This document shows, piece by piece, positions 4,145-42,179 of a stretch of DNA of 43,909 nt. The notes below the pieces were generated by a model. The model did not search any database. It saw only the letters and a list, made by a program, of their open reading frames with translations, and was not told the DNA's origin. Within the stretch, counting starts at the first letter, position 1. Each line of letters opens with the position of its first letter. Origin of the DNA: Armatimonadota bacterium (GTDB lineage: Bacteria > Bacteroidota > Ignavibacteria > OLB7); NCBI GenBank assembly GCA_020850315.1, contig JADZEY010000003.1, positions 1-43,909 of the forward strand. Direction: 5' to 3'. Made by a program: the position numbers and the translations under genes.

Positions 4145-4284
4145 AATGCTACTTGAAGCAATGAAATTGGCTGGGAATGGCGACGTGCAACGTACCGCAG
4201 CACACTTGGCAACGGAGCAGCACGGCAGGAAAGGAGTAGCTTTGCCAAGCACGCTGTTTCCAACGATCTATCCGGACATTGCAC

Positions 4285-4608
4285 ATGATGCCGTGGCTGC
4301 TTCTTATTCTTGCTGGCCTCTTCGAAATCGGATTCACCACCTGCCTGAAGCTCTCCGAAAATTTCACCAACCTTCGTTGGACGGTAGGCTTTTTGGCCAG
4401 CGCCAGCATCAGTTTCTACTTGCTGACAAAAGCTACCGAAACCATTCCCATGGGGACAGCTTACGCTGTTTGGACTGGGATTGGCGCGGCTGGGACAGTG
4501 GTTGTGGGGATGCTGCTGTTTGATGAACCAACCGACACGTGGCGGCTGTTTTTTTTGGTGCTTCTTATCGGCTCCATCGCTGGGCTAAAGCTGGTTTCCG
4601 CACACTGA
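4285..4608 (+). CDS. gdx: SMR-family transporter, guanidinium exporter (SugE/Gdx) type
   Basis: A small four-helix inner-membrane antiporter of about 107 residues, starting MMPWLLLILAGLFEIG. The conserved membrane Glu lies in helix 1 (GLFEIGFT). The segment AYAVWTGIGAAGTVVVGMLLFDEP is the strong signature of the Gdx subgroup, which exports guanidinium in exchange for protons, rather than of EmrE-type drug pumps. Starts at 4285 or 4288 are both possible; an in-frame TTG at 4279 is less likely. I looked for ykkC-type guanidine riboswitch elements in 4145-4284 and saw only a weak hairpin (GGC/GCC and AAAG/CTTT arms around 4223-4246), not a convincing match. Confidence 0.9.
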   Translation: MMPWLLLILAGLFEIGFTTCLKLSENFTNLRWTVGFLASASISFYLLTKATETIPMGTAYAVWTGIGAAGTVVVGMLLFDEPTDTWRLFFLVLLIGSIAGLKLVSAH

Positions 4609-40066: not shown

Positions 40067-40127
40067 GGATGTGTGTGTTGTGGTGATAAATGCATTCAAG
40101 ATATTGTTAACAGCGTGCATATTTCTA

Positions 40128-40150
40128 GGGCGCGCTTGTACAGCGCGCCC
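40128..40150. terminator. Perfect 9-bp GC hairpin upstream of rtcB
   Basis: GGGCGCGCT (40128-40136) pairs with AGCGCGCCC (40142-40150), loop TGTAC. It lies 62 bases upstream of the rtcB start. T-rich sequence (ATTGTTTTATTTG) follows on the plus strand; on the rtcB strand it is followed by TAGAAATATG, so it could be a leader hairpin rather than a terminator for rtcB. Confidence 0.55.
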
Positions 40151-40164
40151 ATTGTTTTATTTGC

Positions 40165-40218
40165 TCACCGGCGGCATGCGCCAGAATAATCCTGCGATTG
40201 GCAGTAATGTAGTTTCAT
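40165..40218 (-). CDS. Candidate 17-residue leader ORF before rtcB
   Basis: An ATG at 40218 with a strong GGAGAA ribosome site (40225-40230, six bases away) opens MKLHYCQSQDYSGACRR, then a stop. It precedes the hairpin 40128-40150 and rtcB on the same strand. A longer minus ORF ending at 40215 overlaps its ATG by the ATGA junction. There is no homology basis; the case rests on the ribosome site and position. It may be chance. Confidence 0.25.
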   Translation of the reverse strand: MKLHYCQSQDYSGACRR

Positions 40219-40794
40219 GATGACTTCTCCAACAATATTGTGATTAATGTTGCACAAACCCAGCACCCAGCGTCAGCTTTTGCTCGCTCGGTTTGCTTCC
40301 GATTCTGTCTCTGGCTTCGCTGTGGTTGCTGGTGTTTGGTTGTTTTTGCCCCATCCTTTTTGCCAATGTTCATTTTTTGCTTTGAACGGAATCCGTTTTC
40401 GGGCTTGCTGATTTGGGCGGATGGTACTGCGGTTGTTAAATCCACTTCCTGGCATGGTGAACCTCATAAGTGTATGTGTGATAAACTCTTCTTCCATCAC
40501 CCCATTCCCCTCTTCCTTTCTTCTGTGTACTTCTTTGATTTTTCTCCCTTTTGGCGGAGGGCAATTGGTGGTTAGGGTTTCCCACCAATTGCCCCGCAAC
40601 AGCAAGGTGATCCTTGCATTTTGGAGTGATCCCCCCCTCTCTCATCTTCTCCTATCTGTGTGGTGTGTGAACGTTATTTGTTTTGGGCAAAGAAATTTCC
40701 CGCCATTATTGCCCTATTTTTTTGGAGAGCATGAATGGATTGTTTTTTTAGATATGATGAGTAGAAATTTTCTGCTGTCTTTTCAACAACAAAA

Positions 40795-40826
40795 AACCCA
40801 CCTTCATATCATGTTGAAGGTGGGTT
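40795..40826 (-). terminator. Orphan intrinsic terminator, minus-strand orientation
   Basis: AACCCACCTTCA (40795-40806) is the exact reverse complement of TGAAGGTGGGTT (40815-40826), loop of 8. On the minus strand the stem is followed by a run of T (TTTTTTGTTGTTG counting the last stem bases). The orientation therefore ends a minus-strand transcript, yet no annotated gene precedes it on that strand. Confidence 0.8.
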
Positions 40827-40855
40827 GCCAATTCAATACTGAGTATGGCAGTGAT

Positions 40856-40969
40856 CTATACGATCAGCGGAGGCCCACCTATGTTGGTAATATCTAACCC
40901 TCCCATCACAAAGCACAAGCGTGCTTGCTTTAGAAAATTGGTTCGATATGTTGGGAGTATTCTGATCAT
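40856..40969 (-). CDS. Candidate 37-residue small protein upstream of orphan terminator
   Basis: ATG at 40969, stop at 40856, beginning MIRILPTYRTNFLKQ and ending LDITNIGGPPLIV. The frame stays open upstream to a TTG at about 41014. The orphan terminator starts 30 bases past the stop on the same strand, the normal layout for a gene end. There is no clear ribosome site and no family is known to me. An overlapping 61-codon plus-strand frame (40845-41030) competes. The transcript could instead be a small non-coding RNA. Confidence 0.3.
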   Translation of the reverse strand: MIRILPTYRTNFLKQARLCFVMGGLDITNIGGPPLIV

Positions 40970-41036
40970 TGGTTTATTTGCCTGCAAGTGGCGGCTGTTT
41001 TTTTTGATGTGCAAAAATACTATTCTGTGATTCGCG

Positions 41037-41081
41037 ATGTCAAGGATTTTTTTGAAAACCCATCAAAAAAAATCTTGATAT
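41037..41081. repeat. Near-perfect 19-base AT-rich inverted repeat
   Basis: Arm 41037-41055 (ATGTCAAGGA, T run, GA) and arm 41063-41081 (TC, A run, TCTTGATAT) match at 17 of 19 positions with a 7-base loop (AAACCCA). A second inverted pair, CTGCGTGA (41083-41090) / TCACGCAG (41118-41125), follows at once. The T and A runs allow terminator activity in either direction, or protein binding. Confidence 0.6.
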
Positions 41082-41300
41082 TCTGCGTGATTTTTTGCCA
41101 CGATAGTTGAGCATTTTTCACGCAGTGCACAATGCCAAATAAATTCCGCACGGTAGCGAATGCCCACAGAACACGACGACCCGTTAAAAGGTTTCCGTTA
41201 GGGGCACATTTTTTTGCTCTTTTTTTCTCCGCTATCCTTCGCCGGTTATCTTTTGTGAAGTGTTAGCTTGTTGCGGTTCACAGAAAACAGCAGTGGAGTT

Positions 41301-42179
41301 ATGCTTACCAACACATTTTGCCATATCCCCAAAATTGGGCGAAAAACCGAAGAACAACTGTGGGAGGAAGGAATCCTTTCGTGGGAGGATTGCCTTGAGT
41401 ATCAAGGGCCGGAATTTAAGGGGAGGCCAGCCAACCGGATTGCCAAGGATGTGTATGCTTCGGTGGAGGCATTGGAGAACCGCGAGGTGCGCTGGTTTGC
41501 CGAACGGCTTCCGGTTAGCGAGGCGTGGCGGATGTTCCCAGAGTTCCGCGAGCGCACGGCATACTTGGATATTGAAACCACCGGAATGGGGTGGGAAGGT
41601 GAGGCGATTATCACCAGCATCGCGCTGTGGGATGGCCACGATATACGCAGCTACATCTACGGCCAAAACCTTCGTGATTTCCGTGATGAAATTGATGAGT
41701 ATGACCTTCTTGTCACCTACAACGGTAAGTCGTTCGATGTGCCGTTTATCGAACGCTATTTCGGCAGAACCATTCCCCACGCCCACATTGATTTGCGCTA
41801 CGTACTTCACAGCCTGGGCATTAAAGGTGGGCTGAAAGGAAGCGAACGGCAGTTCGGCCTGGAACGCGGCGACCTTGATGGAGTTGATGGATACTTTGCC
41901 GTGCTGCTGTGGCATCATTACCAAGCCCTGGGGGATGAACGCGCGTTGCAGACCTTGCTGGCTTACAACGTGCAGGACACTATCACGCTGGAGCATCTGA
42001 TGGTGGCCGCCTACAACCTAAAACTGGAAGAAACTCCGTTTACCTTCAGCCGCGCTTTGCGGGAACCGAAGCCACCGGCCAATCCGTTCACTGCCGACCG
42101 GGAAATAATTGAACAGCTGCGGCAACAGCATGGGTTGTGGGGGGGAACCGAGCGGCTGCCGCAATCGGTGGAGTGGTAG
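41301..42179 (+). CDS. YprB-like ribonuclease H-fold 3'-5' exonuclease (DEDD family)
   Basis: 292 residues from the ATG at 41301, which has GTGGAG four bases upstream. An N-terminal helical part (KIGRKTEEQLWEEGILSWEDCLE) precedes the nuclease domain. DEDD metal residues lie in YLDIETTGMG (Asp, Glu), LVTYNGKSFDVPF (Asp) and AYNVQDTITLEHLM (Asp), with HIDLRYVLHSLGIKGGLKGSERQFG between. This matches the YprB/COG3359 group of predicted exonucleases, active on nucleic acid ends, substrate unknown. It is complete and ends before a long hairpin shared with the convergent T9SS gene. Confidence 0.85.
   Translation: MLTNTFCHIPKIGRKTEEQLWEEGILSWEDCLEYQGPEFKGRPANRIAKDVYASVEALENREVRWFAERLPVSEAWRMFPEFRERTAYLDIETTGMGWEGEAIITSIALWDGHDIRSYIYGQNLRDFRDEIDEYDLLVTYNGKSFDVPFIERYFGRTIPHAHIDLRYVLHSLGIKGGLKGSERQFGLERGDLDGVDGYFAVLLWHHYQALGDERALQTLLAYNVQDTITLEHLMVAAYNLKLEETPFTFSRALREPKPPANPFTADREIIEQLRQQHGLWGGTERLPQSVEW

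Follow-up and report, generated by a model that had tools for sequence, protein, structure and literature searches.

A candidate small RNA gene restricted to one Chlorobiota genus, encoded between rtcB and an RNase_H_2 exonuclease gene

The closest described systems are intergenic small RNAs (sRNAs) of the same phylum. GibS (BTnc035) of Bacteroides thetaiotaomicron, as summarised in PMC7366714, is an intergenic sRNA that has a start and an intrinsic terminator of its own, is conserved at the genus level and is largely unstructured, with an open 5' part. Rfp18 and other independent transcripts of Flavobacterium psychrophilum, in the description given in PMC9723704, have TAnnTTTG promoters, strong predicted structure and a usual length of ~180 nt, and were shown by transcriptome data; the TAnnTTTG box is that of the Bacteroidetes housekeeping sigma factor and occupies positions -12 to -5 (PMC9723704). 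Here we describe a minus-strand unit that, judged from its sequence, is very probably an RNA gene. Our favoured reading, to which we give somewhat better than even chances, is that of a stand-alone intergenic sRNA gene acting in trans. Going by the published summary, it resembles GibS as a predicted stand-alone intergenic unit that brings its own start and intrinsic terminator, is conserved in its genus and has an open 5' part, whereas GibS is largely unstructured and a rod is predicted here; the two are likened by description and not by sequence. The Rfp18 group, again likened by description as its report gives it, shares the genus-level conservation, the TAnnTTTG promoter, the strong predicted structure and the length, but was shown by transcriptome data, whereas our sRNA is known from sequence alone.

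The window, the whole stretch of 43,909 nucleotides that was analysed, is one entire contig of a 4.24-Mb genome. A preliminary description had pointed to an orphan minus-strand terminator with a T run, and its perfect 12-bp stem is confirmed at 40795–40826. The arms (40795–40806 and 40815–40826, 12 nt, 100% complementary) enclose an 8-nt loop and are followed on the minus strand by TTTTGTTGTT, with the U-rich tail at 40785–40794. Six terminator-like sites occur in 3 kb, compared with 3.8 (sd 1.8) in shuffles, so that this stem, the longest of the six, is notable for its length and not for its presence. The nearby 37-codon frame (minus strand, 40856–40969, stop codon 40856–40858) was also found, its end 29 bases ahead of the stem. 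The AT-richness noted earlier is real, with a GC content of 38–42% in 40625–41249 (250-base windows) against 48–62% in the flanking genes, but it is shared by the entire 40.0–41.3 kb intergenic stretch.

A 601-base region compared with 61 genomes gave, besides its own genome, one strong match (84% identity over 40703–41053, E = 5.9e-100). This was to the congener, the single genus relative compared (G001, which we take to be Chlorobiota bacterium isolate new MAG-306, JAEUSP010000099.1). The unit has the same position in both genomes, between rtcB and the RNase_H_2 exonuclease gene, and the downstream genes lie on the same strand as the unit in both species. Measured in 50-column windows, identity to the congener is 82–94% over 40786–41009, 36–62% upstream (windows 41035–41299) and 70–76% at and past the terminator tail (windows 40687–40810); the promoter and the terminator, both on the minus strand, bracket this peak. 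The preserved position argues against the remnant of a transferred element that had been suggested, as do the single copy found in its own genome by the covariance model described below and the lack of matches in phage and plasmid collections and, for one exact 19-base pattern, in viral contigs.

The predicted promoter, TTGACA-N18-TATTTTTG (41012–41043, minus strand), is of the Bacteroidetes type, with a -33 box at 41038–41043 and a -7 box at 41012–41019. Both boxes and the exact 18-base spacing are identical in the two species, while 5 of the 18 spacer bases differ (counted by eye). The window holds a single instance of the box pair and 100 shuffles hold none, and a looser promoter pattern occurs twice against 0.38 expected. 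Since TATTTTTG fits the TAnnTTTG box at -12 to -5, the start of transcription is predicted at ~41007. The unit thus has its own predicted promoter and its own intrinsic terminator, as intergenic sRNA genes do. Both inverted repeats named in the preliminary description are present. The first arm of the repeat at 41037–41081 (19-nt arms, 84% complementary, 7-nt loop) includes the TTGACA box, and the second arm is lost in the congener. The repeat at 41083–41125, upstream of the promoter, has the arms CTGCGTGA/TCACGCAG and is a possible regulator site; by eye, the congener retains its half sites, GCGTGA and TCACGC, which are separated by 27 and 30 bases in the two species.

Transcription by RNA polymerase with the housekeeping sigma factor would run from ~41007, set by this TTG/TAnnTTTG promoter, to the intrinsic terminator and yield an RNA ~220 nt long (40787–41007, minus strand). 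We infer its transcription, its exact ends and its action in trans. Its 5' end would be rich in A and largely open; an imperfect rod, ~110 nt long, would come next, then a short linker and finally the terminator hairpin. The rod (40860–40969), with a closing stem AUGAUCAG/CUGAUCGU and inner stems, is predicted in both species. The whole RNA folds at -68.3 kcal/mol, compared with -48.9 (sd 4.35) for shuffled sequences (z -4.46, 1 of 200 shuffles as stable). The terminator supplies part of this stability, and for the rod alone z is -3.36 (window) and -2.96 (congener). RNAalifold applied to the two sequences yields 55 pairs with one compensatory change, an A-U pair in the terminator stem that becomes G-C in the congener; within the rod, the two-species comparison holds none. 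Of the 37 rod pairs of the window fold, 34 are still possible in the congener, and the eight differences in the rod fall in paired columns five times by the window fold and three times by the congener's own fold. As there are two species only, the rod fold lacks covariation support, and given the absence of compensatory changes and the five differences in paired columns, its exact form is predicted and not proven.

The 37-codon frame almost coincides with the rod, and the unit might instead be a small mRNA for a 37-residue peptide, alone or as part of a dual-function RNA. The frame is uninterrupted in each of the two species, which share its start and stop; its product is 86% identical, and the promoter and terminator are positioned as for a small gene. 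The substitutions tell against this reading. The frame differs between the species by 2.5 synonymous and 5.5 replacement changes (pS 0.09, pN 0.066), whereas the neighbouring genes have far higher synonymous divergence (RNase_H_2, pS 0.40, pN 0.056; rtcB, pS 0.39, pN 0.061). Had the frame been kept for its protein alone, ~11 synonymous changes would be expected (27.7 sites x 0.40), and the deficit is significant by Fisher's test on counts rounded to whole numbers (p = 0.003 against RNase_H_2, p = 0.002 against both genes). Throughout the gap-free block of 139 bases pS is 0.06–0.15 in all six frames. The synonymous sites of the frame are therefore nearly as conserved as its replacement sites, which points to selection on the RNA and leaves the peptide unsupported. 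The constraint falls on the nucleotides, and the unit is conserved without protein-level constraint, as expected of an sRNA gene. Comparison of folds is less decisive. Permuting the codons gave a fold as stable as the real one in 1 of 500 cases in each species, but resampling them did so in 46 and 30 of 500; these folds overlap the real value, and the substitutions therefore make the stronger case. The peptide has no Pfam or NCBIfam match and no relative beyond the genus (hits in 8 of 119 genomes at E ≤ 0.5, the six from outside the genus at 0.06 or worse). We consider the peptide reading quite unlikely.

On the plus strand, too, both species have an open frame, which would be compatible with a small gene there. 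The pS of this frame is low as well (0.15), and neither a promoter nor a terminator on the plus strand supports it. Alternatively, the region might be conserved regulatory DNA beside a chance terminator. That there is no RNA gene here in either of these senses is distinctly improbable, because the minus-strand promoter and terminator bracket the conservation so exactly. Of the two products first proposed, a regulatory RNA or a small peptide, the conserved unit, its promoter and terminator, the stable fold and the constraint on nucleotides argue for the RNA, and the roughly fourfold lower divergence of the synonymous sites relative to the neighbouring genes argues against the peptide.

We built a covariance model (R1) from the two sequences and used it to explore the distribution of the RNA; resting on two sequences, it may miss distant relatives. 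R1 finds the RNA once in each of the two genus members. At E ≤ 1 it matched three of 119 genomes, these two and G014 (E = 0.78), and at a lax E ≤ 10 none of six relatives. Among 391 genomes of the class, a set overlapping the 119, five matched at E ≤ 0.1; the three from outside the genus scored 18–22 bits, with per-genome E-values of 0.007–0.08, about what chance would give for 391 genomes. The alignments from outside the genus consist of a terminator-like hairpin plus gaps, or of short pieces. R1 also matched one of 29 named RNase_H_2 loci (L024, the congener), and in four further genomes that have an RNase_H_2 relative (G002, G003, G004 and G011) other genes occupy the upstream DNA. The DNA search returned matches in 50 of the 61 genomes at E ≤ 1; beyond the own genome and the congener these were short, the best at 0.0066, and inspection of a short match in L003 (genome G018) revealed no such unit. 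The covariance search proposed earlier thus recovers a conserved RNA in the congener and no credible homologue beyond the genus, and the best reading of these searches is that the predicted sRNA is restricted to its genus. Unrelated to the sRNA, positions ~1200–1700 of L003 in genome G018 carry two similar tandem sets of short palindromic blocks, built around GACTCCGTCAGGAGTC, GACCCCGTAGGGGTC and GACCCCAATGGGGTC.

We compared the unit to known RNA families. Rfam 15 gave no family at the gathering score in the window, and at E ≤ 10 four chance-level matches in 40100–41320, the best at E = 0.35 and all well under the gathering score. We know of no earlier description of this RNA from searches of Rfam and of the Kapabacteria/Chlorobiota small-RNA literature. 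Y RNA and YrlA RNA are associated with Ro60 and RtcB, and the present RNA is likewise encoded beside rtcB; it differs in that a Ro60 (TROVE) gene is present in none of five genomes of the family and in having no Rfam match. A diverged 6S RNA, binding RNA polymerase, would have the right size and a similar rod-like shape, and none of eight genomes (this one, G001–G005, G018 and G045) has a 6S RNA (RF00013) match over the cut-off; a single weak hit came from G018 (E = 0.355). Searched at E ≤ 10, the region itself yields no hit to RF00013, though this carries little weight, as the model detects 6S in just 6 of 14 control genomes. The predicted folds have no closing stem joining the two ends, and the RNA is found in the genus only. 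These points make a 6S identity most improbable.

Between the terminator and rtcB lies a conserved 60-codon frame (40273–40455, minus strand, MPGSGFNNR...) that the preliminary description had missed. Its product is 67% identical in the congener with a dN/dS of ~0.3 and has no Pfam or NCBIfam match; on this pattern of substitution it is probably a real small protein gene. Upstream of it, 40561–40594 and 40637–40710 hold a conserved inverted repeat, GGCAATTGGTGG/CCACCAATTGCC, and a block ~90–94% identical in the congener, perhaps the leader or start region of the 60-codon frame. Directly upstream of rtcB there is a further hairpin, GGGCGCGC/GCGCGCCC (40128–40150), whose arms are kept in the congener and whose loop differs.

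With genes on the same strand downstream in both species, the unit could be a cis-acting leader, an attenuator at which some transcripts read through to the 60-codon gene and rtcB. What makes such a switch possible is a rod segment, AGGUGGG (40874–40880, minus strand), which can sequester CCCACCU of the terminator 5' arm while the transcript is still incomplete, an effect that is strong in the window and weak in the congener; the outcome would be decided by a ligand or by a ribosome translating the 37-codon frame, which stops just ahead of the terminator. In truncated transcripts this pairing has a probability of ~0.9 in the window, where it dominates, but of 0.4–0.5 in the congener, and it falls to 0 after the terminator forms, so that the completed terminator wins outright in both species. 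The next frame lies ~330 nt beyond the terminator with a further conserved block in between, and the proposed leader frame lacks protein-level constraint. We consider an attenuator unlikely. It is very unlikely that the RNA represents a lineage-specific structured class of one Chlorobiota genus that stands in for 6S RNA or else acts as a kinetic switch, AGGUGGG holding the terminator 5' arm until the terminator forms and ribosomes on the 37-codon frame tipping the balance.

For the favoured stand-alone sRNA, the likeliest mode of action, by analogy with intergenic sRNAs of the phylum such as GibS or Rfp18 as their reports describe them, is in trans through unpaired segments. The RNA would most likely pair with mRNAs through these segments or bind a protein. 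Genes adjoining the sRNA pair with it no better than background. The first 40 nt of the RNA paired with the start of the 60-codon gene such that 1 of 300 and 7 of 300 shuffles were as good, in one of 16 comparisons. However, equal or better pairing is found for 497 of the 1304 ATG-centred stretches of the window and for 155 of the 421 of the congener locus. Pairing at this start site is thus no better than background, and the lead was dropped. A 25-base stretch at 4536–4560 (plus strand) matches the start of the sRNA in antisense at 92% identity and lies inside a small transporter frame (4279–4608), which we take to be SMR/SugE-like. This pairing (a 20-base complement) is not maintained in the congener, and this lead was therefore dropped as well.

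The candidate sRNA would be an ordinary kind of gene and leaves the known kinds of RNA unchanged. The locus provides a worked example of how one congener, together with the low synonymous divergence of an enclosed frame, separates an RNA gene from a small protein gene. If transcribed, it would add an undescribed sRNA to a branch of the Chlorobiota that has hardly been studied.
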